DNA from: a virus
Reading direction: 5' to 3' (one strand)
Virus record (IMG/VR): IMGVR_UViG_3300010885_010416
Span: 1-24,021 of that record
Length of the DNA stretch: 24,021 nucleotides
The notes beneath the pieces are model-generated. The model ran no database searches. It was not told the origin of the DNA and saw only the letters and a program-made list of their open reading frames with translations. Made by a program: the position numbers and the translations under genes. Shown here piece after piece: positions 3,225 through 19,650 of the stretch (positions within the stretch are counted from its first letter, which is position 1; the number at the start of each line of letters is the position of its first letter).

Positions 3225-3587
3225 ATGAAGAAACAACAGGTGATGATCCCTGCAAAGATGCCTTCACATGATCCGCTGTATCATAGATACGAGGCATGGA
3301 AGATCCTTACTGCTGTGTGTAAGATCTCTGGCATTAACATAACACGCCTTGATTCAAAGGAGAGGAGCAAAGGTCTTACTGCGTGGCGCGACATAGCCTA
3401 CTGCGTTGCTCAGACATTCTTTCTCATGTCTCCAACAGAAGCTGCTAAGTCATTCAATGTTTCTCGTTCCACTATCATCAATAGTGGAACGAGAAGTGAC
3501 AACCTAATCGAGTGTCAGTTGCACGCTGAAACGCAATCGTATGTCGATATGTTATATCGGGTATACGATACGGCTATTGCGGGTTGA
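3225..3587 (+). CDS. DnaA domain IV-like helix-turn-helix protein
   Basis: The start ATG at 3225 follows the previous stop by one base; the longer in-frame opening at 3156 would overlap that gene and is rejected. The protein has 120 residues. Residues 54-92 (RDIAYCVAQTFF, then SPTEAAKSFNVSRSTIINSGTR) match the layout of the DnaA C-terminal DNA-binding domain, where a helix-turn-helix is followed by a D/HTTV-type signature. The signature is only partly kept here. No ATPase domain is present, so it is not an initiator protein but more likely a DNA-binding regulator or origin-binding accessory. A perfect hairpin lies in the codons of the recognition segment. The 3' end overlaps the opposing giant gene by 14 bp. 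Confidence 0.7.
   Translation: MKKQQVMIPAKMPSHDPLYHRYEAWKILTAVCKISGINITRLDSKERSKGLTAWRDIAYCVAQTFFLMSPTEAAKSFNVSRSTIINSGTRSDNLIECQLHAETQSYVDMLYRVYDTAIAG
3461..3495. repeat. Perfect 15-bp inverted repeat inside the HTH gene
   Basis: TTCTCGTTCCACTAT (3461-3475) and ATAGTGGAACGAGAA (3481-3495) are exact reverse complements with a 5-base loop. It covers the codons for residues 80-90 of the HTH protein. On the minus strand it lies about 80 bases beyond the stop codon of the giant gene, so it could also shape or stabilise the 3' end of that transcript. No U-tract follows on either strand, so a standard intrinsic terminator is unlikely. Confidence 0.85.
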
Positions 3588-6500
3588 GCTTGATGTAACG
3601 CGTGTAGCGGTTGAGTTCGTCATTGAACGTCTTCATCCGCTGCACGCCCACATCTCCTAAGCTCAACACCTTTTCGATGAAGGCTGGATTTGGGACTGGC
3701 TTCTCCGATAGTCCGTTGAAGATCAGACTAATGCGGCGATCCCCGTATCCCATATCCTGCTGCTTCATAAGTCCAGCGGCTTCCCGAATCCCGAATCCTG
3801 ATTTAGGAATGTTGAGGAATCCACGAAGTCCCTTGTAAACTTCTTCGTCAATACGAACGCGAGTCTCAACCCAATCTCTGGCGAGTCCCCTGACTTCGTC
3901 GTCAGACAGCGCACGCTGCGTCTTGAGTTGATTGATCCTGCCAGTCAGATCGTTCCGCTCCTTCTGCTTGTTGCGTAGGAACTTCGTCGCACTCTCCGTC
4001 ACGTTGACTTCGCGTGGCTTGATCACATTGAACTCATCCAGTAGAATATGGAGTGGTGCATACTTATCATCAACAGCAAGTCCTTGGGCAGAATTGAAAG
4101 CTTCCCATGCTTTCTGTATCGTGCGCGGATTGAACGAGTTGTCGATAATGTAGCCTAACTTCTTAGCGTATTGCATGATGCCATCAGACTCATAGGCAAT
4201 TGGTTGCTTTGTACTACGATCTTGATTGTTCCATACATCGAGCAATGCTCCAGTAAAGATCTGCGTATCAAGATAGGTACTGGATAAGGCTCCAGTAAAG
4301 TCAGTCATAGCCTTTGAATAGTTTCCTCTAGAGATCTGTTCAAGGCTACGCAAGATCGGATCAGCAACTAACGAGTAAGGATTAATGAACGTAAGGTCGC
4401 CTGACATCAGCTTCCCATCAAGCCATCTGTAGTAGAAGTATGTATTGTCCTTAGCAAACGATGGCATACCTTCACGGAGTGCATCATCCTCGTCGTCTCC
4501 GATTCCCATCCAGCGACGTATTGCTTCAGACGCTGCACCTGAGATGACAAATAAGACAGAGTTCATACCCCAAAAGCGTTTCTGCCCACGACTTCTGATG
4601 ACTGGATTATCTGACTTCCGCTCTTTAGACGCGAGCTTGTAAGTGTTGAAGATGATCCGTGGCACTTCAGTCTTGTATCGCAAGAATGGAGCCACAAACA
4701 TTCCGCCACTACGGACAGTCGCCTGAATAATTGCTGGAGCTTCTGAGTAACTCTGCGCTGTAGCGAGTACGTTGTCTGCTGCAAGACGCTTCATCTCATA
4801 GTCTGACAGTTTAGCGTAGAACGAATCCGTATTGCCAGCATCGAGGTCATGCTGCTTTGCTTTCTGGAATGTCTCAAGTTCATGGTGGAAGTATGCCATC
4901 TTGTAGAACCCATCGACTGCTCCCGACAATGCCTGAAGTCTATCAGTCAATGGCGCAGTTGCATCAGATGCCTTTCCGTAAACAGCTCCAGCTTTTTGCT
5001 TTACAGCTTGAAGCTTCTCCATAATCGAATTAGCTTCTTCCTTCAAACTCTCTGGAGTCTTACGACCTTTGAGAAGATCCTTAATAAGCGACGATTGCAT
5101 CTCATTATTAAGTATGTTCAATGACACTAGCTCTGCTCTGTATGCATCGATGTCGTGCGGATCTTTCACAACTTGTCCGATAAGCTTCATGGATAGTCCC
5201 ATTGATTTGAAGTTAACGAACCCTTGAGATGGGCCGAAGAACAACGTGTTACTCACAATGTTACGAAGATAGAATCCAATCGAACCCATCGTCTTAACAC
5301 CTAAGGATAGTCCAGTAAGCTTGTTGAACAAGTTGGCTACTTCTTTAGTCGCAAACTGTGCAGCTGTCAGGTTGTCATCGATTACTGGCGGGCTATACAT
5401 CTTACGCATCCCTTCGATGAGTTCAATCGGCCCGTACATATTGTATGTTGGATCGTATGTGCCGCCTAAGTCATCTGGAACAATCTCTTTAGAATCGGGA
5501 ACGTATATCTTTCCAGTCCGAAGATTAGCGTAACGCTGTTGCGTCATAGGATCTTTCCTAATGAGTTCCTTCAACTGCTCTTCAGTATACAAGAATCCTT
5601 CTTCAACTGGTAGTCCGTCTTCGTCAATAGCTTGATTGCCCTCTGGATCTAATACTGGCTTTGAACTACCTACTGCAATCAAGTTGTTGTAGAACGACTG
5701 ACGAGCAACCATTGTAGTAACTGTCGAGTAAGTATTCAGCAAGTTTGATACTGCCTCTGTGTCCTGACTATATTCACCTAGCAACGCACGGAGACGAGGA
5801 TCAAGATTCGTTTTGTTCCTGAGGTTATCGATCAGAGATTTAGTAACGCCCTTCGCTAAGACTCCACGCTTACGGTTATACTCTGGATCATACGATTTGA
5901 TATACTGAACCATCAACTGTGCGGGGATCTCAGGATGATCGTCTAGATAATCCTGAGCCTCGATCATAGCTTGCTGTTTCGTTAGTGCCTTCGACCCATC
6001 GATCTTAGACTGCTTAGTCGCGGCATTAACTCTGATGCTAGCTTCTTTCTTGATGTATCTTTCGCGGAAGTACTCCATTGCTTCGTCACGAATCTTGACG
6101 AATACCTCATCCTTAGATGTCAGGACTTTATCTACGTACCCTTCTTCAGAGAAGGTGCGGTAGGATCGAGTGAGGTAGATACCCATTCCCGCATCGAAGC
6201 GCACAGCAAGTGAACCTTTCAGTCCGTATTGCTCTTTCACTTTGCGGGAGAAAGCATCCGTAACCTTACGCATTTCAAGCAGAGCTGCCGCAAGCTCAGG
6301 AGAAGTGAGAGAGATCTTTTCCAGAGCAGCAGACTGCTTACGCAGGATCTCGTCACGTAGTCTAGCACGCTCTGCCGTAACCCGCTGCACAACAAGTCGC
6401 TGATGGACACTAGCAAGATACTCTTTAGAGGTAAGCTTCGCGCTGGTTTCAAGATTGAACTCTCCGTTCTTCACGCGCTGCTTTACTGTCGCAACATAGG

Positions 6501-9500
6501 TGCGGTATTCACTCTGGAACTTCTGCTTAAGCTCTTTATCAATCTGAATAAATTCAGTTGTTCCGACAGCGTCTGCAAGAAGATCGGATGGCGCATTAGC
6601 TTCGCTGCCATATGCTTCCTTGATCTGCTTAGTAATCTTGCTTGTGAGCGACATCCCCAATGCATCTGTAGCACGCTCGAAAGCTTGTTGATTCTTTTTG
6701 AGCTTGATGACCCGTTCATCGATATCGCCTTTGATGAGCTTACGCCATGTACTGGAAGCGTGTTGGTAGTTCCCGTTCTTGAATAGTGCTACGGGAAGTT
6801 CAAGTGTATCGAACAAGTACTTAAAGCGTTCTTCGATTTCCTCATCCGTCGTATCGGGATTGATATCCTTAGCTGTTGCAGCATAGCGGCGGCGGAGTAC
6901 TTCGACGTTAGCTTCTGGAGAGCGTGGATCGAATGGACTATGGTTATCGACATTACGACCTCCAGATTGCATGAACTCAAGCTCGACCGCCATGCGATGA
7001 ATCATCCCAGCAACTTCTGGATTATCTTTATTCAGGTTGTAGCGGGCGTACATCCGCTTGAAGACACCTTTGAAGTAGCGGAACATGATACGCATGAGTG
7101 ACGGATCGCTCTCGTAGAATGCGATGTCTTCCTCCGTAGTGTAACCGCGAGTAATCTTCTGCTTCTCCATACGCAGCATCTCCCCGATAAGCTGGCGTTT
7201 GATCTCGCCATCCTCGTCGTTCTGAAGAGCTTCACGCAATTGACTACGGCGACTAGGATTAGCTGTGTACTCATCGACGATGTTGTAGAAGTCCTGATCG
7301 ATGAACGAGTCTGCCAAACCGTTTAGTTCCTCCGTCGAGATCGCATAGAACTCTGCAACGTGATCAAGCTCTTCTCCGATAAGAGATTCAAGAATCGCCT
7401 TAGCGTTCAACGGATCACTGATAGTGGACTGCTGGTTTAGAAGTGCTTTGCCCATCGTCTCTCTGTTGATAAAGATTGCTGGATAAGTTTCTCCAGCATC
7501 GTTCTTCATCAGAGCCGCGACAATTGCATCCTCAGGACGATCCGCAAAGATTCCGTGTGCGTCTGCTTCAGCTTGCGTGTTGAAGACTTCGACGCTCACA
7601 TCAGCAGGAATCAGTCCGCGAACTGCTTGATCGATCAGAGTGTCGATCACTTCCTTTTGTTCAGCAGTAGTCTCGATATCCTCAGAGATCGATCCGAAGT
7701 TTGCGAAGCGTGTTTGCTGTTGCGATTCTGAAACCTTCTCAACTACAGGAATAATCCTACGACTGACTCCGACACTAATAGCTTCTTGAATACCTCTATC
7801 AATGTAGTCACGACTTGTTCTAGCCATATCGCTGTTGCCAATTTCAGTGAAGTCAGTAAGCGCAGCAAGTGCTGTGTCGAACTCACTCTTTGGTTTAATG
7901 CCAAAGGCACTCAAGATTGCATCATAGATACGAGCGAAGAAGTTTTTGCCCTTAGTCTTAGGATCTTGCAGGAACTTCAGGCTATTCTGGAAGTCTGACG
8001 AAGAGAAGTACGTCGCAACGAACTCTTCAAAGTTCTCTGTAGCAAGCTCGAAAGCAACGCTACGCCTGCCAGTCAAACGGGAATCTTCTGCATACGCTGC
8101 TTTAGTAAGCTCATAAAGTCCTTTAAGTCTTGCCTTTGCCGTGCGCTGCGATGGTGTGAGTGACGCATCAGGTCTATTAAGAAGATCAACAGTGAATGCG
8201 TGAACGTACTCATGTAGCAGAACTGACTCTACGCCATTGCCATAATAGCCTGCAAGATTGACTGAGACACGACCTCCGCCCGATTCAAACGGAATGAAAT
8301 TTCCAGCTTCGTTGTTGTTAATATCCGTGATAACAAACTGAATGTTGCGAATAATGTCTGGATTTTTCAACAAGAGTTTAGCAATGGCTTTATGGTTCTT
8401 ATCCTTGCCACTCTTAGCAATAAGATTCAAAGCAGAAATAACGGACTCGACGTTTCCAGATTCAAGACTAAGTCTCTCGACTTCTTGATTGTTCTTGTTG
8501 CGGTAGAAGGTGCGGTACTTATCAGAGATAAACGAAGGCGCAGCGTAGCTACGCTGACCGATACGTGCAGCAACAACAGTTGATGCGGCTTCTCCTGAGT
8601 CCATTCCCGTTGAAATCAGTTCTTTAATGGCGCGGCTTTCTTGCCGCATGAACTTGATTTCAGCTTCGTTAAAGCCCAACCTAAGCATCCGCTCTTGTAA
8701 ACCCTTATCCCATTGCTTTTTAAATTGGTGCTGGAATACTCCAGAAGATTCAAAGGCGTCGTAAACAGTTCTAGCTGTAGCATTAGACTCTTTAAAGTTA
8801 TCTAAGAACTGTCTACGGAATGTGTGAGAGTCTACTACTGAGAACCTATTCCCAGCTGGGGATGCCCATTGGGCAATAGAGTTAAAGACATCTACGGGCA
8901 TCATAGAGTCAACAAGTTCTGGATTACTTTTAAACGCCGTCTGTTTAGCAAGTCGCTTAATAGCCCGCGCAGCTTCACGATCCCTTCTAAGGATCGCGTA
9001 AGCGTCTTGAATTATTCCAACATTAACTTTGGTTAATTCCTCTGCGTTATTAGTAGTATGGAGATACATACTTGTAGCTTCATCGTACCCATACACGTCT
9101 TTAAGTGCTGCTTCAAATTCATTTTCTGTAAGGTCTGACTTAACTAGTCTGCTGTAAGCATCTGCTTGCGCGTTATCTCTTGACTCTCTATCGTATGTGA
9201 GACGATCTTTAATGCGATCTCTGATCCTACTTACAATTGATGGCACATTTGGAAAATTCCCATTACTATCCGCGTGTGCGATATTATCATTGATAGTATT
9301 TAATAAGAACTGATCAACAACTTTATTTGCCCACTGAGGATCTAGAGTACGAACGGCGTTCTTCTTAGTGGATATTAAAATTTGAGGCTTTATTTCACCC
9401 GATTTAAATCCGAAAGTGTACAGGAAGCTCGCTTTGTTTTCTTCCTCTGACGTAACTTTTAGATCTTGATCTAGTTTAGCGTCAGAAGGAACTGAAAGAC

Positions 9501-12500
9501 TATTGAGCAAGATTGATCTAGCTTGTTCAATTCCTTCGGGCTTAATTGAATAAGTAGATCCGTTTCGCACTAGAAGATCTGATGCTTGTAAAGATTGTAC
9601 AATATGTCCATATGTTAAAGCTCTAGTGAACTCTGGAATAACTTCCATCATGAAGTTGAGCTTAACTTCTTGAACTTCATCAGAACGAAGTTTAAGTCGA
9701 TCTAAGTTTGCAAGCTTAAATAGTTTCTTTGATGCTCCAATATTCTTCATGTATAGTGTATTATCACTACCCACGTTCTGCGTAATTGTAGAGTACACAT
9801 TACCAAAGAAATTGGTAGCATTAATAATGGCTTCAGCAAGTGAGAATTCTTTAGCATCTGAAGTCTCTGTAATATCATTGAGGTTTCTATTTACGGTCAC
9901 TTTACTTTCAACAGAAGACTTAAATCCAGCAAGTAAATCAAAACCGTCTGCAATAGTTTTTGCTACCTTATTTTCTGTTGGCTTACTTTTATCTTTGTGT
10001 ACAATAGAAATCTTTTCGAGAGGATTTGAAGGACTAGGAAACTGTACGTCGTAGATTACTCTCGACTGTTCATCAAATTTAATCGCCTTATTTACAGCTC
10101 CATTAAAATTTTGTGGTACTTTAATTGGGATTTTTGACTTTAGAATATGCGCGACAGTGAACGGATTATTGTCAAATACACCGACACGCACTCCGCCGTC
10201 TCTAAAGATATTATAACGAAGGCTCACTTCCTGTTCGTAGTTTCCAGTAAACGGATTAAACCAACTGAGCTTAGGTGTCTTCTTTGACTCCATAAGTTCT
10301 GTTGGAATACCGTACAACTCAACTACTTCAGCTAAAGAAAGTAGTGGGTACTTAGCAAAAGTACGCGTCGCCAACATATTCGATAGCTCATTGTAATCGA
10401 TAGCGTCACTGTAGTTAGCAGGCATCCCAAATGCTGCGCTCTTCTTAAAGCGGACGACTGCGCCTTCATCAGAAAGGTAATCAAGAACTTTAGGAATTTG
10501 TTCATTGGCAACTTGTACAGCAACGGACGCACCCCTTACACGTTCTTCATCCGCGATCCTAAGCTTTTCAATACGTACTCTCTCAGTTTCAGCTTTAGCT
10601 TCCGCCTTAGCTTGAGCTGCTAATGCTTTAGCGTCACTTGGAACTTTAGGAGCTTTAGGTTCCTTAGGAGCTTTGGGTTCCTTAGGAGCTTTGGGTTCCT
10701 TAGGAGCTTTAGGTTCCTTAGGAGCTTTAGGTTCCTTAGGAGCTTTGGGTTCCTCAGTAGCTTTAGCTTCTTCTACTGCAACTGTCCGCAGACGCTCTGC
10801 AACAGCAGAAGCTTGAAACGGATCAACGTCGTTCTGAGAGGATAGCCGCTCACGAATTCGTTTGTCAGCAGCTTCAAGAGTTAAGCCTCGTCTAACGAGT
10901 GCCTGAACTGCTTCGTTATATTCCTGCCTTGTAAACGAAAGCGAGTCATCGGGTTGGCTTTGGATCGAGTACTTAAGATTCTTATCCGCTTCTGATTGAG
11001 GAAAGATTAAGTTGGGATCTAAAAGTGGGCTTTCGACAATAGCAATAGGAGAAGAGATTTGATCAAGTAAGTCTGGAAGAACTTGTTCGGAAGTCTCAAG
11101 ATAAGCTCCTTGAACTGCGGCACGAAACTCTTCTGGAGAAATGTCACGAAGTCTTTTGATAATCTCGTCGGCTCTACTATCAGCAAGAGGCTGAATCTTG
11201 AGTTCGTTGATTGGGATGGAAAGAACATCGGGAGTAGCATCAGCATTGCCAGCCTCTACTTCCGCCATCGTAGTATTATCGTCACCGATTTTAACGTATG
11301 CAATCGGCCCGTTCTCAGATTCGGCGACGCCAATAACTGTGCCAGAATAGAATCCTTTGCTAGTGCGGCCTGATGCAACTTGTCCAATAAGCGGGTTTAC
11401 CTCTTCTTGTTCTGGTGCAACTTCTGCCGTATCAGTACGGGGACTCTGTGCAACAGAAGAAGTAGCGAAAGGCTTCTTGATTGCGCCTGTGAGATTAGCA
11501 TCTTCGATTGGCTTCTTTGATTCGGCAATACGATCAAGCACACTTTTGATATTGCTGCGAAGCTTATCAACTGTGTCGGGCATCGCGTTGGCTGTCGGTG
11601 CAAGATCACGATTAGTCGCCAGTACGTGTGGATGCTCTGGATTTCCAGAAGATACTTTGACAATGTTGAGCTTACGGATATCTCCAACAGTCTGGTTTAG
11701 ATAATCTGCAACAGCTCGCAGATCTTCAGATCCATAGAAATTATTGATGTCTTTTCCTGAAGTTTTATTGAACCATCCATCTGAGCCAATGCCAAAGATC
11801 GGATACCACTTGCCTACAGCAACGTCAGCTTTGCCGCCATATCCAGTACTGATGTAGAACGGCACACGAATGCCATTGATAGACGCAAGCACTAACGGTC
11901 TTCCAGAATAGTTCAGCACTCTAGCTTCACCAGACTGCTCTTCAAGAGGTCCGCCAGTTACTGTAGCGTACTTAGTAATGTATGGCGCAGAATCAAAAGT
12001 AACTTTGTTGCCGTTGATATCTGCCGCTTGTGCCAAGAAAGATTCAAGCTGCTCAGGATTACTGAAAGACGCTGGCGTAGTTGGCGCAGCTGGTGCGGGA
12101 GTTGCTGCGTTAGCCTGTGGTTTAATGCTTCCAGTTCCGATTAGTCCGACAGCGTTTCTTGCACCAGCAACGGCAGTAGTAGAAGTTTCTTCTGGCTTAT
12201 TAGCCATTGCATTCAGCTGGTCTAGTGTAACAAACTCATCTGAGTTCGCAGCAGCGGCAGCGGGATTAGCCGCAGCTGGCTTTGCAGCAGCTGGAGCAGT
12301 AGCTTTTTGTTGTGGTGCAAAGATGCGCTTCTCGATTGCTTCAGCCGTAAGTGGACTACCAGCAGCACGTAAGTTTTCAGCAATCTGATTTACGACAGAA
12401 GACTTTGCAGCATCTCGACTCTCAGCATCGATCTCTCCGCCTCTCGCGAATTTGCCCAACGTCGCACGGAAAGCTCCAGTTGCTCCACCGAATACGCCGC

Positions 12501-14754
12501 CGTATACCGCAGCCATTCCTGACTGTTTAAGACGCTCAAGTATCGGACGATCCTGATCCGTGAATCCTGTTTCAACAAACCCGTTGATGAAATCTTGCAC
12601 GCCTTCTTCAACTGCTTCGTCAGCAAAGTTCTTTGCGACACCCATTGTGGCAGAAGTCTTGAACAAGTTCTTATAGCCAGCCTTAACTGTATTAGCTACG
12701 ACTTTATTAAAAATCTGATTTGCGGCATCAGACTCAAGTTCTCCAGCAGGGAAGTTAATTCCTTTGATCTTTGAGAGAACAGCTTTCATCTGGCGCGGAG
12801 TTGCTCCGCCCAACATGAAGTCTTCTAGACCTCCGTGTCCCAACATCGAGAAGCCGACAGTAGTCGCTCCAGTGATTGTCGCGGCAATCATTCCGCCAGC
12901 TAAAGCTCTGTCATGTCTTTCCTGCTCAGTCATCTTCTTACCTTCAGGGGAGTCCTGTAGGACAGAGTAGATATTTGCATAGGTGCTGCCACCTTCACGG
13001 GTAGCCGCAGGGACGAACATTGCTGAACGAATCAGGTACTTATTTGCAGTAGTCTCCGCATAGGCTTTAATGGCAGTAGCGGCACTTTGTTCTATCGTTT
13101 GCGTAGCCGTCGCTTTTACAAGACCTTTTGTAACGAGTCGAGCTGCGGCATCTGCTGCCGTTTCAGTTGCTGCTCTAGCGAGTGCGCCCCTTGCAATCCC
13201 AGTAACGATTCCCTTTGCAGTTAAGCGTGCGCCAGCATAAGCTGCTCCGCCGATTCCTCCAGCTTCCGTTAGCAAAGCAGTTATTACTCCATCAGTTACA
13301 ACTGGAGCGATCATCTCTCCAAAGGTAGTAGTAACTCCAAAGTCTTTTCCAAAGATGTTTGCGAGTGTCCTGCGCGAAGCTCTTTTTCGCTGCGATTCTA
13401 GCAGTGCATCTATGCTTTCTTTGTCCTTTGCAACAGCTCCCACAGTATGATAGATATCAGCAAATCCATCATATATAGATGAGCCAATAGCTCCGACAAT
13501 CTCATTCTTAAAATAGTTATAGTCATGTGTATTTAAGAATTGGTCTAAAATTTCAGACTTCTTTTTATTCTGCGCAAAGCCAGTCTGTACAGCATTTGTC
13601 CACTCGTCTGAAAGATACGTGTCTTTAAATACTTGCCCGTAGGTATCGAAAGATGATTCGAGTTTAGACTGACGTGTAGTTTTAAAACTGTTTCGTTGAT
13701 CATCCGTTAAATTTGGATCGGACAGCATACTATCAAATATGTCTTGCTTGATCATTGCGTCACGATGCATGACAGGGGAGCCATATCCAAAATAGTGGAT
13801 GTTCTTCGTAACTTCTTCCCCTTCACGCAGTTTAAGTTTTGCAGAGTCAGCTGCTATAGACCCACTCACATATTCTAAAGCAGCACGCTTATCAGCATCA
13901 GGGAGATTAGCCATTTCTGGATTCTTCTCATCTAAACTATCGATCAGTGTTTTATAATGAAAATCAATATCTCTTAATGCAGCTGTCTTTCCATTATCAA
14001 TGTCACCAATATCGTCAGCTAATTTTAAAGCACCCTTCTTGAATGCTTCATCATTTTGGATAAGTGTAAAAGCCGCAACAGCTGCTTTATCGTAGTTTTG
14101 TAATTGAAACTTAGGAACAGTAGAACCTGTAGGAATCGTATATGCATCTTGAATAGCAAGAGCGTCGTCGGCACTAAGAAACCCCATTCGTTTGCCTTGC
14201 TGATAGGCATCATAAGGAGTCATATTCTTCGCAAGATCTCCGCCGACATAACGCGTGTCGCCTTTAGCATCTTTGATTTTAGCAAAAGGAATAGTACCTT
14301 CGCTGAGTAACTTCATCTGCACCTTATCATAATTGGCGTCAGTAGCCGCTTTAGCTTTAGCTTCAAGCTCTGGCATCGCTGCCTGATAAGTTTCAAGATC
14401 TGGTCCTTCGATCTTGCCCGCATCAAGATTCTTCTTAGTGATGTAGAAGCGACGCATATCGTCGTAGCCAGCATCCTGTTCATTAGTGTTGCCGAAGACG
14501 TAATCAAACTTTCGTTCAAAGGGAACGTCTGTAGGGGCAAACTGTTTATCGATGTCCTCTTTGCTCAACCCCAAAATAGGATCAGATAGTGAAGCATATC
14601 GCGCTTCATCTACTGTCTTATTAATATCTCCATCAAGTTTGCCCTCTTTAAAGTAAGAGTCTTTGACGTATTCAGAATACTTATTACGCTTTTCTAGTTC
14701 ATCGCTAACATTGTTTGAAAGCGACCATTGGTCGATTGATTGAAGCTCAGGCAT
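3574..14754 (-). CDS. Giant polyvalent-type protein with zincin metallopeptidase, 3,726 residues
   Basis: One uninterrupted frame of 11.2 kb. Visible parts, by residue: charged helical N-terminus (1-470); Gly/Ala-rich hydrophobic stretches that could touch membranes (about 479-580, 619-645, 745-765); Ala/Pro linker (about 816-835); a beta-rich domain with a KWYPIFGIGSDGWFNK segment (about 919-1030); six Lys/Pro repeats (1335-1370); a zincin with HEYVH at 2181-2185 and candidate third ligand in ENFEEFVA (2240-2247); a second zincin-like region reading EELDH (2461-2465); charged helices (about 2640-2900); and a C-terminal section (about 3130-3420) resembling the LPD38 domain of phage polyvalent proteins. 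Such proteins are known as multi-effector proteins thought to enter the host with phage or plasmid DNA. No RNA polymerase motifs were seen, so it is not an N4-type virion polymerase. The start is 36 bp after the 351-residue gene. Virion packaging is inferred. Confidence 0.85.
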   Translation of the reverse strand: MPELQSIDQWSLSNNVSDELEKRNKYSEYVKDSYFKEGKLDGDINKTVDEARYASLSDPILGLSKEDIDKQFAPTDVPFERKFDYVFGNTNEQDAGYDDMRRFYITKKNLDAGKIEGPDLETYQAAMPELEAKAKAATDANYDKVQMKLLSEGTIPFAKIKDAKGDTRYVGGDLAKNMTPYDAYQQGKRMGFLSADDALAIQDAYTIPTGSTVPKFQLQNYDKAAVAAFTLIQNDEAFKKGALKLADDIGDIDNGKTAALRDIDFHYKTLIDSLDEKNPEMANLPDADKRAALEYVSGSIAADSAKLKLREGEEVTKNIHYFGYGSPVMHRDAMIKQDIFDSMLSDPNLTDDQRNSFKTTRQSKLESSFDTYGQVFKDTYLSDEWTNAVQTGFAQNKKKSEILDQFLNTHDYNYFKNEIVGAIGSSIYDGFADIYHTVGAVAKDKESIDALLESQRKRASRRTLANIFGKDFGVTTTFGEMIAPVVTDGVITALLTEAGGIGGAAYAGARLTAKGIVTGIARGALARAATETAADAAARLVTKGLVKATATQTIEQSAATAIKAYAETTANKYLIRSAMFVPAATREGGSTYANIYSVLQDSPEGKKMTEQERHDRALAGGMIAATITGATTVGFSMLGHGGLEDFMLGGATPRQMKAVLSKIKGINFPAGELESDAANQIFNKVVANTVKAGYKNLFKTSATMGVAKNFADEAVEEGVQDFINGFVETGFTDQDRPILERLKQSGMAAVYGGVFGGATGAFRATLGKFARGGEIDAESRDAAKSSVVNQIAENLRAAGSPLTAEAIEKRIFAPQQKATAPAAAKPAAANPAAAAANSDEFVTLDQLNAMANKPEETSTTAVAGARNAVGLIGTGSIKPQANAATPAPAAPTTPASFSNPEQLESFLAQAADINGNKVTFDSAPYITKYATVTGGPLEEQSGEARVLNYSGRPLVLASINGIRVPFYISTGYGGKADVAVGKWYPIFGIGSDGWFNKTSGKDINNFYGSEDLRAVADYLNQTVGDIRKLNIVKVSSGNPEHPHVLATNRDLAPTANAMPDTVDKLRSNIKSVLDRIAESKKPIEDANLTGAIKKPFATSSVAQSPRTDTAEVAPEQEEVNPLIGQVASGRTSKGFYSGTVIGVAESENGPIAYVKIGDDNTTMAEVEAGNADATPDVLSIPINELKIQPLADSRADEIIKRLRDISPEEFRAAVQGAYLETSEQVLPDLLDQISSPIAIVESPLLDPNLIFPQSEADKNLKYSIQSQPDDSLSFTRQEYNEAVQALVRRGLTLEAADKRIRERLSSQNDVDPFQASAVAERLRTVAVEEAKATEEPKAPKEPKAPKEPKAPKEPKAPKEPKAPKEPKAPKVPSDAKALAAQAKAEAKAETERVRIEKLRIADEERVRGASVAVQVANEQIPKVLDYLSDEGAVVRFKKSAAFGMPANYSDAIDYNELSNMLATRTFAKYPLLSLAEVVELYGIPTELMESKKTPKLSWFNPFTGNYEQEVSLRYNIFRDGGVRVGVFDNNPFTVAHILKSKIPIKVPQNFNGAVNKAIKFDEQSRVIYDVQFPSPSNPLEKISIVHKDKSKPTENKVAKTIADGFDLLAGFKSSVESKVTVNRNLNDITETSDAKEFSLAEAIINATNFFGNVYSTITQNVGSDNTLYMKNIGASKKLFKLANLDRLKLRSDEVQEVKLNFMMEVIPEFTRALTYGHIVQSLQASDLLVRNGSTYSIKPEGIEQARSILLNSLSVPSDAKLDQDLKVTSEEENKASFLYTFGFKSGEIKPQILISTKKNAVRTLDPQWANKVVDQFLLNTINDNIAHADSNGNFPNVPSIVSRIRDRIKDRLTYDRESRDNAQADAYSRLVKSDLTENEFEAALKDVYGYDEATSMYLHTTNNAEELTKVNVGIIQDAYAILRRDREAARAIKRLAKQTAFKSNPELVDSMMPVDVFNSIAQWASPAGNRFSVVDSHTFRRQFLDNFKESNATARTVYDAFESSGVFQHQFKKQWDKGLQERMLRLGFNEAEIKFMRQESRAIKELISTGMDSGEAASTVVAARIGQRSYAAPSFISDKYRTFYRNKNNQEVERLSLESGNVESVISALNLIAKSGKDKNHKAIAKLLLKNPDIIRNIQFVITDINNNEAGNFIPFESGGGRVSVNLAGYYGNGVESVLLHEYVHAFTVDLLNRPDASLTPSQRTAKARLKGLYELTKAAYAEDSRLTGRRSVAFELATENFEEFVATYFSSSDFQNSLKFLQDPKTKGKNFFARIYDAILSAFGIKPKSEFDTALAALTDFTEIGNSDMARTSRDYIDRGIQEAISVGVSRRIIPVVEKVSESQQQTRFANFGSISEDIETTAEQKEVIDTLIDQAVRGLIPADVSVEVFNTQAEADAHGIFADRPEDAIVAALMKNDAGETYPAIFINRETMGKALLNQQSTISDPLNAKAILESLIGEELDHVAEFYAISTEELNGLADSFIDQDFYNIVDEYTANPSRRSQLREALQNDEDGEIKRQLIGEMLRMEKQKITRGYTTEEDIAFYESDPSLMRIMFRYFKGVFKRMYARYNLNKDNPEVAGMIHRMAVELEFMQSGGRNVDNHSPFDPRSPEANVEVLRRRYAATAKDINPDTTDEEIEERFKYLFDTLELPVALFKNGNYQHASSTWRKLIKGDIDERVIKLKKNQQAFERATDALGMSLTSKITKQIKEAYGSEANAPSDLLADAVGTTEFIQIDKELKQKFQSEYRTYVATVKQRVKNGEFNLETSAKLTSKEYLASVHQRLVVQRVTAERARLRDEILRKQSAALEKISLTSPELAAALLEMRKVTDAFSRKVKEQYGLKGSLAVRFDAGMGIYLTRSYRTFSEEGYVDKVLTSKDEVFVKIRDEAMEYFRERYIKKEASIRVNAATKQSKIDGSKALTKQQAMIEAQDYLDDHPEIPAQLMVQYIKSYDPEYNRKRGVLAKGVTKSLIDNLRNKTNLDPRLRALLGEYSQDTEAVSNLLNTYSTVTTMVARQSFYNNLIAVGSSKPVLDPEGNQAIDEDGLPVEEGFLYTEEQLKELIRKDPMTQQRYANLRTGKIYVPDSKEIVPDDLGGTYDPTYNMYGPIELIEGMRKMYSPPVIDDNLTAAQFATKEVANLFNKLTGLSLGVKTMGSIGFYLRNIVSNTLFFGPSQGFVNFKSMGLSMKLIGQVVKDPHDIDAYRAELVSLNILNNEMQSSLIKDLLKGRKTPESLKEEANSIMEKLQAVKQKAGAVYGKASDATAPLTDRLQALSGAVDGFYKMAYFHHELETFQKAKQHDLDAGNTDSFYAKLSDYEMKRLAADNVLATAQSYSEAPAIIQATVRSGGMFVAPFLRYKTEVPRIIFNTYKLASKERKSDNPVIRSRGQKRFWGMNSVLFVISGAASEAIRRWMGIGDDEDDALREGMPSFAKDNTYFYYRWLDGKLMSGDLTFINPYSLVADPILRSLEQISRGNYSKAMTDFTGALSSTYLDTQIFTGALLDVWNNQDRSTKQPIAYESDGIMQYAKKLGYIIDNSFNPRTIQKAWEAFNSAQGLAVDDKYAPLHILLDEFNVIKPREVNVTESATKFLRNKQKERNDLTGRINQLKTQRALSDDEVRGLARDWVETRVRIDEEVYKGLRGFLNIPKSGFGIREAAGLMKQQDMGYGDRRISLIFNGLSEKPVPNPAFIEKVLSLGDVGVQRMKTFNDELNRYTRYIKLNPQ
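10645..10752 (-). repeat. Six tandem 18-bp repeats encoding EPKAPK units
   Basis: Six consecutive 18-bp units read EPKAPK on the minus strand, covering residues 1335-1370 of the giant protein. Units differ mainly at a synonymous third base (GGG or AGG for Pro as read on the plus strand), so the amino-acid repeat is exact. The following segment is Ala/Lys/Glu-rich and helical. A stiff, extended positively and negatively charged spacer between two halves of the protein is the likely role. Confidence 0.9.
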
Positions 14755-15849: not shown

Positions 15850-16452
15850 TTATCGAGGAGTTGGGACAGGACTAAGAGTACCATTCTTCCTTAAAGCCTC
15901 AATCTGTGCCCTGATAAATTCATTGGTAAGCCTGTTCTGCTCTTCAAGTTGGGCTTGATACTGCATGGCTGCACTAGTAGCTGCTCCATCTTGTTTGTCT
16001 CGCTCTGCTTGATATCCTTCGCTTTTAAGAACTGGCTCTTTAAGTCCAGTAGCTCCAGCAGTTTTAGCAAGATCATTTGCAGCACCACCGAAGCCTTGTC
16101 TTTTAAGGCGTCTAGCCATACGCAAGGCTTTACCCGTATCTGATTCAAGGGCCGTAGCGGGCATACTAGTTGCTGTTGACGTACCCATACGTGCGCCTTG
16201 CATCGCGTCGTAACGATCAAGCAAGCGGGTAGTCGGTCCTTGCGAATTGGATGGGTTCAAGTTTGGTCCGCCGAATGCTCCACTATCTTTTGACCTTTGA
16301 CGGGCTGCGGCTTCGTCGGCATCGAAGATAGATCGCACAGGTTTTGCCGTAGCAAGTGGCATAGCAGGGAGCGGTTTGAACTTTTCTTCTTCATCAGGAA
16401 ATAATCTCCCGCTAGTCGTAGCAAATTTCCCGTTAACAATCGTCGAAGCCAT
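15850..16452 (-). CDS. Low-complexity 200-residue protein, first gene of the giant-gene operon
   Basis: Unrecognised. The protein is rich in Ala, Gly, Thr and Arg with no hydrophobic core segments in its first 100 residues (FDADEAAARQRSKDSG, then NPSNSQGPTTRLLDRYDA). Residues 105-135 contain a basic patch with helix potential (ARRLKRQGFGGAANDLAK). Residues 160-190 form a Gln/Glu/Arg helix probably able to coil. It ends in a Pro-rich tail. A near-consensus promoter lies only 6 bp upstream of the ATG, so the transcript may begin at the start codon itself. Position suggests a virion or scaffold-type component, but the sequence alone does not show it. Confidence 0.75.
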   Translation of the reverse strand: MASTIVNGKFATTSGRLFPDEEEKFKPLPAMPLATAKPVRSIFDADEAAARQRSKDSGAFGGPNLNPSNSQGPTTRLLDRYDAMQGARMGTSTATSMPATALESDTGKALRMARRLKRQGFGGAANDLAKTAGATGLKEPVLKSEGYQAERDKQDGAATSAAMQYQAQLEEQNRLTNEFIRAQIEALRKNGTLSPVPTPR

Positions 16453-16458
16453 TCGCAG

Positions 16459-16487
16459 AATTTACGGCAACACGCTCAATTTGTCAA
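16459..16487 (-). promoter_or_regulatory. Sigma-70-type promoter giving a probable leaderless transcript
   Basis: Read on the minus strand, TTGACA (16487-16482) is followed by 17 bp and TAAATT (16464-16459). The -35 is perfect and the -10 keeps four of six consensus bases. Six bases then separate the -10 from the ATG at 16452, so the expected start of transcription falls on or beside the A of ATG. It would drive the 200-residue, 351-residue and giant genes. Confidence 0.6.
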
Positions 16488-16518
16488 CACATTAGCAATA
16501 CATGCGTTCGACTGAACA

Positions 16519-16539
16519 CCGCCTATCCTAAATAGGCGG
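16519..16539. repeat. 8-bp stem hairpin in the intergenic island
   Basis: CCGCCTAT (16519-16526) pairs perfectly with ATAGGCGG (16532-16539) around a 5-base loop. It lies about 30 bp upstream of the -35 box of the giant-gene operon promoter and 30 bp from the large inverted repeat. There is no U-tract on either side. It may be an operator or a weak transcription barrier. Confidence 0.5.
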
Positions 16540-16569
16540 GATTCGTCAATTATTTTCTCCTATACAATA

Positions 16570-16644
16570 TAAAAAGTCTTATTTAGAAGTACTTCACTAA
16601 TGTGTCGGACACATTAGTGAAGTACTTCTAAATAAGACTTTTTA
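16570..16644 (-). terminator. Perfect 37-bp inverted repeat after the terminase gene, probable terminator
   Basis: Bases 16570-16606 and 16608-16644 are exact reverse complements around a single G at 16607. On the minus strand the hairpin starts 12 bases after the terminase stop. Its stem is framed by AAAAA on one side and TTTTT on the other, the layout of a bidirectional intrinsic terminator, though far longer than usual ones. Each arm also contains its own palindrome GAAGTACTTC (16586-16595 and 16619-16628). A replication or packaging signal, or a protein-binding site, is an alternative. Confidence 0.6.
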
Positions 16645-16656
16645 ACTTACAAAACG

Positions 16657-18447
16657 CTAATCCAACAAAGCCGTCTCCGAATTGCTGAGTGCGCCGCTCA
16701 ATGACTTGAAAGAGTTTGGCGGCTTCCTGAATCCTGCTTCCGTCGAATCGTTCGGTGGTTCCATTGCCACCATCCCCAAACGCTGACGGGCGCAGTCCAG
16801 TGCAAGGAAGGCGGCATCTGCTAAGTCGGGCGACCTTCCGAAGCGGGACTTGAACTCTGGCTTTGATTCGATCTTCACTTTTAGTGAGCCAGTCTTGACT
16901 AGTTCGTAGTTCCTGCTTGTGATTTCCTGTGCCAGATCGGCGGAGATTCCGAATAACTGCTTCGTCCGCATGAGTTCCTTACCCACGAACCACAATTCAG
17001 ATACACGGTTCACGTAGAGTTCCTCGCCAGTAAGCTTGCTGTTCGCGCTGACACGCTTGTCAGAGGGCTTGCCGCCGAAACTGACACGGAATATCGATGG
17101 CGACCACTCGCCTGCCAGAACGTCACAGAAGGGTGCGCCTGCGCCCGTAGCATCGACTGCAAGATTCTCAGGCAAGATGTTCCTACGCTGGCAGTGCTCC
17201 TTGACTTGCCTCACAATCTGGTACGTTCGCGGAATCGCCTTGTTCGTCGCGTCGTCGTTCAGTAGGATCGCCTCTCCGAATTCAAAGACGTAATGCCCCG
17301 TCGTGTCGTAGCCTACTGTAGCAGTATACAGGATCGTCCTATCTCCTCCGTTCGTAAACGCAGGATCGAGTCCCGCAACAATCGTCGGCTTGCCAGCCCA
17401 TTCGACTTTGTTCATTGCCTTGCTGGAAGTCAGCTCAACTTCGCTGTAAATCCCTTGCGTCTCGTCGCTATCAAAGAAGATTGCGCGAATCATCCGCAAG
17501 TAGCCTCTGGACTCCGCGCCCAACAAAGCCCTGTCCTCAATCAGCTTTTCCTCTGTGGGGAGCCAAGGATACAGGACTTCTCCAGCCAGAATGTTGGGAG
17601 AACGCTCGCCGTCCAGCCGTAAGTAGAAGCCACCCCACTTCGTTTTCCAGTTATCTGCCGTATTAGTATCTACAGAGTCCCATCCGCGAAGTGGCTCAGA
17701 CCAGATTCCGAAAGCGTCGAAGCGACTATTCGGGTTGCTCATACCGATCATCTGGAACTCTGGATTCTTTGACAAGTTGGTAAGACCCGCATTTAGAATT
17801 GCTTCCGAAATTTCAGAAAGCTCGTCTCCGATTACGATGACCCGTTTCTGCTTGATACCGATGAACTTGCCAACTGCTTCCCGTGTCTTGCTCTTTTCAG
17901 CCGCAATCAGGGACAGTCCAGCCCGTTCGATCAAATCGCCGTTCTCATTGATGTACGCTACGTTTCCAATTGAATCCCGAATCTTGCACGGTGCGTTGGG
18001 AATCACTGTCAGTAAGCTGATTACGGAACCCCAAATCCGTTTACGGGCTTCACGTAACGTCGTAGAGGTCATCAGGACGAGCGTGTCTTTTGGCTGAGAT
18101 AGCCAGTTGATGATTGCCCACGCTGCCATTGTGTGGGATTTTCCGCTTGATGCCGATCCTCCGATTGCCAGATACTTGTTGCCAATAGCGGCACGCACCA
18201 TTTCTTCAGCCCACGGATGGCGTACCATCAATTTTTCTGGAAGATCCTCGTTGTTCCAAAGCTCATCACAGCAACGCCAGAAGTAAAACTCCTTTGCCCT
18301 ACTGTTCGTATGATTAGCAAATCCGTAGAGCAAAGCAGTCAAAAGACTCGTCGGAGGGATCAACAAACCGCCAATATCCATCTTCCTTGTTGTCGGGTCA
18401 ATACGTGGCTCCAGCAACTTTTTTGTTTTTTCTGACGAAACACTCAT
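16657..18447 (-). CDS. terL: Terminase large subunit (packaging ATPase and nuclease)
   Basis: The protein powers DNA entry into the prohead and cuts the concatemer. Numbered from the ATG at 18447 (596 residues), the ATPase P-loop GSASSGKS is at 97-104 and the Walker B VIVIGDE ends with Asp208-Glu209. The RNase H-fold nuclease carries Asp361 in GLDPAF, Asp432 in AVDATGAG and Asp544 in DLADAAF, the three acidic residues expected to hold metals. Length is normal for the family. An in-frame GTG at 18462 would add five residues, but the predicted transcription start (near 18458) lies inside that extension, so the ATG is preferred. It is divergent from the candidate small subunit, and no portal or capsid gene follows it on this strand. 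Confidence 0.95.
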   Translation of the reverse strand: MSVSSEKTKKLLEPRIDPTTRKMDIGGLLIPPTSLLTALLYGFANHTNSRAKEFYFWRCCDELWNNEDLPEKLMVRHPWAEEMVRAAIGNKYLAIGGSASSGKSHTMAAWAIINWLSQPKDTLVLMTSTTLREARKRIWGSVISLLTVIPNAPCKIRDSIGNVAYINENGDLIERAGLSLIAAEKSKTREAVGKFIGIKQKRVIVIGDELSEISEAILNAGLTNLSKNPEFQMIGMSNPNSRFDAFGIWSEPLRGWDSVDTNTADNWKTKWGGFYLRLDGERSPNILAGEVLYPWLPTEEKLIEDRALLGAESRGYLRMIRAIFFDSDETQGIYSEVELTSSKAMNKVEWAGKPTIVAGLDPAFTNGGDRTILYTATVGYDTTGHYVFEFGEAILLNDDATNKAIPRTYQIVRQVKEHCQRRNILPENLAVDATGAGAPFCDVLAGEWSPSIFRVSFGGKPSDKRVSANSKLTGEELYVNRVSELWFVGKELMRTKQLFGISADLAQEITSRNYELVKTGSLKVKIESKPEFKSRFGRSPDLADAAFLALDCARQRLGMVAMEPPNDSTEAGFRKPPNSFKSLSGALSNSETALLD

Positions 18448-18454
18448 TTTTTTC

Positions 18455-18483
18455 TTGCCCACTTACCTTATTTCATTTAAACA
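18455..18483 (+). promoter_or_regulatory. Possible divergent promoter for the plus-strand operon
   Basis: TTGCCC (18455-18460), 17 bp, then TAAACA (18478-18483), behind a run of seven T. It would start about 9 bases before the ATG at 18499. Neither box is close to consensus. It overlaps the terminase promoter on the other strand, so the two would compete. Confidence 0.2.
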
Positions 18484-19102: not shown

Positions 19103-19345
19103 ATGTTTAAGAACAAAATTGCAGAACTAAATGCTAGAGCCTTAGTTAGGAAAGAACTTCCAGACGGAGATTTTACCTTTGAAATTAAAACCTTAGCGGG
19201 AATCTTTTACCGTGTGTTCCCGTACAATGGGCGCGAAGTTTGTTATCTCGAATCACTGAGTAAAGGAACAACGATGTTTGCTCCTGAATCAGGAGACGGG
19301 CTTCTTGTACGGGCAGATGTAATCAATTACGTTTCAGAGAACTGA
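19103..19345 (+). CDS. Small hypothetical protein, 80 residues
   Basis: Unrecognised. The ATG at 19103 is one base after the upstream stop (TAATATG). An in-frame TTG at 19088 would overlap the previous gene and is rejected. The product opens with a helix (NKIAELNARALVRKEL), then beta strands (FTFEIKTLAGIFYRVFPYNG) and ends VINYVSEN. Its stop overlaps the next start by one base (TGATG), so it is almost certainly co-translated with its neighbours. Confidence 0.7.
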   Translation: MFKNKIAELNARALVRKELPDGDFTFEIKTLAGIFYRVFPYNGREVCYLESLSKGTTMFAPESGDGLLVRADVINYVSEN

Positions 19346-19650
19346 TGTATCACAAATTCAATCAAGAGAATAAGGATCTGATCTTAAAGCTTTCCGCAGA
19401 AGAGTTCAGCTGCACAGTAGATGGTATCCTCGCAGTTGACAGATCAAACCGTCCGTCAAATGCAAGACACGTTTCGATGGCAATCATGAAAGCATTGCTT
19501 AAATGTACTCTCACAGAAGTAGCTGCGGTATTTGGCAAGCACTACACTACTGTGATACACGCGAAGAAGCGTGTTGATGAAGACATGCAATTAAAGAACT
19601 CTGCTTTAGTCGTCATTAGAAAATTTAAAGAGCAGATAACTGAAGAATGA
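19345..19650 (+). CDS. DnaA domain IV-like DNA-binding protein
   Basis: 101 residues. Residues 38-77 match the DnaA C-terminal helix-turn-helix: an RHVSMAIMKALLKCTLTEVA helix pair, FGKHYTTVIHAKKRV at 63-77, close to the DnaA signature in which H/YTTV contacts the DnaA box. No AAA+ domain is present. Phage proteins of this shape may bind DnaA-box-like sites as regulators or replication accessories. It sits between the 80-residue gene (1-base overlap) and the resolvase (ATGA overlap). It is the second such protein in the window; the first, at 3225-3587, has a more degraded signature. Confidence 0.75.
   Translation: MYHKFNQENKDLILKLSAEEFSCTVDGILAVDRSNRPSNARHVSMAIMKALLKCTLTEVAAVFGKHYTTVIHAKKRVDEDMQLKNSALVVIRKFKEQITEE

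Follow-up and report, generated by a model that had tools for sequence, protein, structure and literature searches.

T7 RNase III sites of the R1.1 type are intergenic hairpins between co-directional genes, with the shape stem, internal loop, stem; the R1.1 substrate is 60 nt long (47 and 13 nt products). The T4-type PeSL (promoter-early stem-loop) cassettes, reportedly described by Arbiol (2010) and Comeau (2014), are said to combine a stem-loop and a promoter in a repeated intergenic unit. In phage SPbeta, the repeated intergenic element SPBRE, a 15 bp motif in prophage promoter regions, is bound by the phage-encoded protein MrpR (PMC10516654). Clustered substitutions that turn an imperfect inverted repeat into a perfect one, as well as inversions of the spacer, are documented (PMC8604942, PMC8794818), and template switching at short inverted repeats was, according to PMC8604942, first proposed by Ripley for bacteriophages.

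The window analysed here, a 24,021-base IMG/VR virus record, carries a perfect 75 nt palindrome that appears to have been evened out recently from an imperfect hairpin, which an uncultivated, mostly marine phage group has at the heads of its late (virion) gene blocks. Like the T7 sites the element lies between co-directional genes, but it spans 69–74 nt, its copies flip and are homogenised inside each genome, and its cleavage by RNase III is putative. It recalls the PeSL cassettes in that a TTGAC box stands behind every examined copy in the lineages of the window and of the relatives G001 and G040, and differs in belonging to unrelated phages, in its near-fixed span with an internal loop, in occupying late-operon sites, in having a constant partner gene and, in one family, in leaving no space for a promoter at the site of that gene. 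Compared with SPBRE it is a far longer palindrome (about 72 bp) located behind stop codons, for which protein binding is putative only. The main interest is the multi-copy, homogenised hairpin family around the palindrome rather than the perfect palindrome: a repeated noncoding cassette of near-fixed length that keeps the same neighbouring gene and belongs to a phage group not represented among 50,697 phage records (TerL, the ~146 aa partner protein and a portal-like protein found no match there).

The palindrome and its setting

The palindrome occupies positions 16570–16644 on the minus strand (sense in the terL direction) and was delimited by repeat search, comparison with relatives, and folding. 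As given in the preliminary description, its arms (16570–16606 and 16608–16644) are 37 nt each, 100% complementary and separated by 1 nt. The sequence GAAGTACTTC, reported there as present in each arm, has exactly two occurrences in the window, starting at 16586 and 16619, 33 bp apart, where 0.04 copies are expected from shuffles. Folding of the terL-direction strand gave −54 kcal/mol (z = −12), and none of 200 shuffled sequences was as stable; a chance origin is excluded. In the lower stem, the 5′ strand (TAAAAAGTCTTAT, 16632–16644) is conserved in the relatives L003 and L004, and the 3′ strand (ATAAGACTTTTTA, 16570–16582) includes the T-run. The upper stem, defined from relatives and folding, pairs TTCACTAATGTGTC (16608–16621) with GACACATTAGTGAA (16593–16606); all four strands are read from the minus strand.

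The upstream gene, terL (16657–18462, minus strand), matches the PHROG terminase large subunit (1.5e-17), and the palindrome starts 12 nt 3′ of its stop codon. Behind the element, on the same strand, are a TTGAC box (16545–16549), which recurs behind all three copies in G001, and a consensus sigma70-type promoter of the next operon (TTGACA-17-TAAATT, 16487–16459), found by promoter scan, so that the described position between terL and the late-operon promoter was confirmed. The promoter directly precedes the ATG (at 16452) of a 200 aa gene (15850–16452, minus strand), the first of the giant-gene block in the ORF list. Its product had no match in profile and family searches, and none was found in Pfam for the product of the giant gene, an ORF of 3726 aa (3574–14754, minus strand). 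An Rfam search returned no hit, and a nucleotide search of the palindrome region against annotated phages gave nothing beyond chance matches of 24–26 bp.

Several minor features were also seen. One piece of the giant protein resembles, at 23% identity, a protein of Pseudoalteromonas phage vB_Pun_Y3 annotated as an ADP-ribosyltransferase. The interval from palindrome to promoter holds another short inverted repeat (CCGCCTAT/ATAGGCGG, 16519–16539), one arm of which is altered in L003. The −10 box ends only about 5–8 nt ahead of the start codon at several genes (16487–16452 on the minus strand of the window, in the relatives L192 and L221, and at the 87 aa gene in L279), a geometry that suggests leaderless mRNAs in these phages. 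A 101 aa ORF at 19345–19650 (plus strand) carries a motif that, judged by eye, is like the DnaA C-terminal domain (HYTTVIHAKKRV).

Origin of the perfect arms

The nearest relatives, L003 and L004, have TerL proteins 100% and 99.8% identical to that of the window, and the DNA flanking the palindrome is about 94–95% identical. Both carry the same hairpin with an internal loop between the lower stem (AAAAAGTCTTAT/ATAAGACTTTTT) and the upper stem, which is that of the window. Across the 206 noncoding bases at 16459–16664, 8 of the 11 differences between the window and L004 are inside 10 bp (16622–16631, minus strand), leaving three in the other 196 bases. In the relatives this tract is one side of the internal loop (CATAATGCTG in L004), while in the window it is the complement of 16583–16592 (minus strand), the partner tract identified by comparison with the relatives; all eight clustered differences equal the complement of their partner positions. 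Such clustered one-arm changes, matching the complement of the opposite arm, are the mark of template switching, and a single template-switch event, by which one arm would have been rewritten from the other, is the simplest account.

Among the remaining terL copies that passed the strict rule given below, symmetry does not exceed 88%, and perfect arms are unique to the window among the collected copies. Perfection therefore appears to be a derived state and not a conserved one. The preliminary description had read perfect conservation of both arms as selection on the hairpin itself; that argument falls away, as perfection is confined to the window, relatives have an internal loop and one arm seems to be a copy of the other. 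Since template switching and exchange would keep arms matched, arm perfection is by itself no sign of selection. GAAGTACTTC is probably a by-product of arm homogenisation. Its second copy (16619–16628) arises from the arm overwrite and is found in neither relative, and its first (16586–16595) is present in L004, where the motif occurs once, and altered in L003, which has GAAGGACTTC in its place; the suggestion that paired dimers bind the two copies does not fit these relatives.

The window copy alone is perfect, as would also be the case if the arms were an assembly or library artefact and the real genome lacked them. This is very unlikely, given that both flanks are normal and co-linear with the relatives and that a mis-join would presumably have to occur across about 13 bases in common, fewer than the usual assembly word sizes. 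The window shares with known quasipalindrome homogenisation the clustered substitutions that perfect an imperfect inverted repeat, but here they occur in a repeated, functional-looking phage element, along with whole-element flips. It provides a natural case of perfect hairpin arms that apparently come from a mutation mechanism and not from selection, and a caution against taking arm perfection or 'compensatory' changes as functional proof.

The hairpin family downstream of terL

A TerL search yielded 80 related viral contigs; together with two further TerL searches and a genome search it brought the collection to 105 distinct regions downstream of terL. A strict rule, requiring an A-tract, C/G-T, arms at least 50% symmetric and a T-tract, finds the hairpin element in at least 46 of the 105; an automatic fold listing includes coding-region false positives, and 46 is the strict-rule count. 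The AAAA-to-TTTT span is 69–74 nt in the strict terL copies despite wide sequence divergence, and the T-run is 4–8 in the 46 distinct copies. Most copies fold as lower stem, internal loop, and upper stem, with z-scores from −6 to −12 across the folded elements; hairpins are weak in some lineages. TTGACA boxes like that of the window's promoter follow terL copies in relatives.

In 15 ungapped copies of 72 nt the centre varies freely and the outer AAAACT/AGTTTT is invariant. Of the pair cells, 96% hold standard pairs, compared with 85% after shuffling, and changes on both sides are seen at 13 pairs, a number that 0 of 500 shuffles attained. The hairpin is a conserved feature, and its arms co-vary in relatives. 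At the level of sequence comparison, this covariation shows a shared paired structure; it does not alone prove selection on pairing, because template switching can itself create double changes. The T-run, on the downstream side, is more often the longer of the two runs than the A-run is (21:9, p = 0.004, uncorrected for relatedness). G.U and A.C mismatches on the transcribed strand are similar in number (35:29), so no clear RNA-strand signature emerges.

Relatives that lack the palindrome and keep the same gene order had been named as evidence against the preliminary description. At terL they exist: G014 and G015 have kept terL, a few genes and a giant gene of 4.3–4.4 kaa, and have no element there, but both retain a copy elsewhere in the genome. 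These genomes also bear on the proposed packaging or replication role. Long palindromes can serve in packaging, concatemer resolution or replication, and the element adjoins terL. A pac/cos, concatemer-resolution or replication signal beside the terminase gene is nevertheless highly improbable, since genomes hold 1–4 copies, several of them far from terL, and many relatives, including ones with the same gene order, have no element at terL.

Two other candidates were rejected: a protelomerase telomere, on the 4–7 unpaired central bases of several relatives, and N4-type hairpin promoters, on the size that such promoters have. Two MAG contigs carry TerL relatives; one equals a viral contig in length and match range, so no host is inferred.

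A second site and its partner gene

A second element site lies about 10–60 nt before a gene of 143–157 aa (the ~146 aa gene) in each of the 27 records that yielded a start for this gene, and is also present in phages without an element at terL; the fragment in the window does not include this gene. The gene ahead of the element at this site is, in most of the records, a small basic one of about 87 aa, whose stop codon either coincides with the start of the element or lies just before it. The ~146 aa gene in turn precedes a gene of about 750 aa, termed portal-like from its size, position and composition only, the product of which had no family match in a profile search. In one family the ~146 aa gene starts only about 13 nt behind the element, and the copies at this site in G004 and G008 leave no space for a promoter behind the element. 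G006 and G040 each have a third copy, which begins at a small gene's stop codon and is followed by a gene of 347/361 aa. Neighbours can be read clearly for part of the copies, to which those near the contig starts of G001, G002 and G013 and one of G017 do not belong; where both are resolved, the copy lies behind the upstream stop codon and between co-directional genes.

The ~146 aa protein matches PHROG HNH families (3e-5 and 9e-5) and, weakly, the N-terminal region of 1u3e, a homing endonuclease chain (I-HmuI, 0.037), and one member matches Pfam NUMOD4 (0.02). Its model has a mean pLDDT of 84 and a pTM of 0.49, and a fold search with it gave no significant match. It resembles a pair of NUMOD4-like modules that lack a nuclease, and the constant neighbour gene may encode a DNA-binding protein.

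The main rival to a transcript boundary, the reading preferred below, is a DNA operator, i.e., a long dyad bound by the ~146 aa NUMOD4-like protein, which would regulate its own operon and control the operon behind terL, with the copies co-evolving. The fixed association with the gene in 27 of 27 records (10–60 nt) is in its favour, as are the near-fixed span, the indifference to orientation, the absence of RNA-strand asymmetry and the likeness of copies inside one genome. The PHROG, I-HmuI and single NUMOD4 matches point the same way, but the NUMOD4 assignment is weak and the fold search brought no significant match. Furthermore, the centre of the dyad varies freely yet stays paired, whereas recognition by sequence would not need pairing, and a position right behind stop codons, with T-runs, would be unexpected. 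An operator is possible, though not likely. Rather unlikely is a two-part control of late genes in this uncultured group, in which the near-fixed-length element, copied and evened out inside each genome through template switching and exchange, would be read by the adjacent double-NUMOD4-like protein, autoregulating the portal operon and timing the operon behind terL.

A candidate transcript boundary

On balance, the element is probably a phage-specific hairpin cassette of near-fixed length that heads late operons and acts as a transcript boundary, whether a terminator or an RNase III-type site. This reading is supported by the same hairpin at terL in relatives, its place behind stop codons with co-directional neighbours, the excess of T-run over A-run, the promoter behind the terL copy, the stem/loop/stem shape and the pairing that persists although the upper stem varies in sequence. 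The multi-copy state, the concerted evolution, the arm overwrite in the window and the flip between L204 and L221 (below) also support it; the lack of RNA-strand mismatch asymmetry and the weak hairpins of some lineages count against it.

At such a boundary, the hairpin and U-run would end or process the mRNA of the upstream gene, either terL or the ~87 aa gene ahead of the ~146 aa and portal-like genes. Intrinsic termination, RNase III-type cleavage or both would do this and leave a 3′ end that is protected, so that the late operon behind the element would have its own expression. Arms and copies alike would stay matched through template switching and through exchange among the copies.

The terminator role named in the preliminary description is plausible from the sequence: a stable hairpin followed by a T-run is found 3′ of a gene. 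A G+C-rich stem directly before an unpaired T-run is not; the lower stem beside the T-run is A+T-rich and in the folded structure the T-run pairs with the A-run, so that this is not a classical terminator, and a consensus scan of the window did not list the element. Where only about 13 nt precede the ~146 aa gene, strong termination would silence the portal operon unless relieved. As in RNase III sites of the T7 type, a long stem with an internal loop is found between co-directional genes.

Copies within genomes

Whole records were scanned with the pattern AAAAST-N52-66-ASTTTT, some hits of which are due to chance (0–2 per record in the reversed control). Most long records have 1–4 paired copies, e.g., at 190, 21817 and 60925 in G001 and at 7532, 25267 and 29900 in G006, and there are four in G040. 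Ten genomes were compared within one family: the terL copy of a genome and its best second-locus copy were on average 95.3% identical, as against 75% for the same locus in two genomes; in the upper stem the values were 97.5% within and 69% between genomes, the best-matching orientation being chosen in every comparison. Copies are thus alike within a genome, as in the SPBRE/MrpR system, and their greater likeness within than between genomes amounts to concerted evolution.

The element can also be inverted in place. That of L204 is 93% identical to the L221 element as the reverse complement and 82% as written, while the 3′ flanks are 91% identical. In most genomes of the family compared above, the element at the second locus and the terL copy have opposite orientations. 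That a 72 bp noncoding element evolves in concert and flips inside single phage genomes is directly testable.

A REP/MITE-like element, selfish or mobile and palindromic, that spreads inside each genome and homogenises its copies there might also account for the flips, the tandem copies and the presence of several near-identical copies in one genome. TA is present at both element ends, but the main loci are fixed: two loci recur across many genomes, with a few others, and phages that have diverged widely share these main loci instead of having insertions at dispersed places. Unsystematic inspection brought up neither a transposase nor a target duplication, and this explanation is improbable.

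Tandem duplicates of the element, about 115–135 bp apart, occur directly ahead of the ~146 aa gene in G008, G004, G037, G041, G054 and G020, and likewise in G040 at 43968 and 44103. In the leader of the ~146 aa gene of L299 (G035), many dispersed pieces of the GTGCTGTAAAACCGTTTT/CAGCACCAAAG motif surround the element, as if repeatedly copied. Another repeated inverted repeat, of the CATAGCTGACAGCC...GGCTGTCAGCTATG type, is found twice per genome near small ORFs, at 43322–43364 and 43598–43640 in G004 and at 1166–1209 and 1550–1592 in G008.
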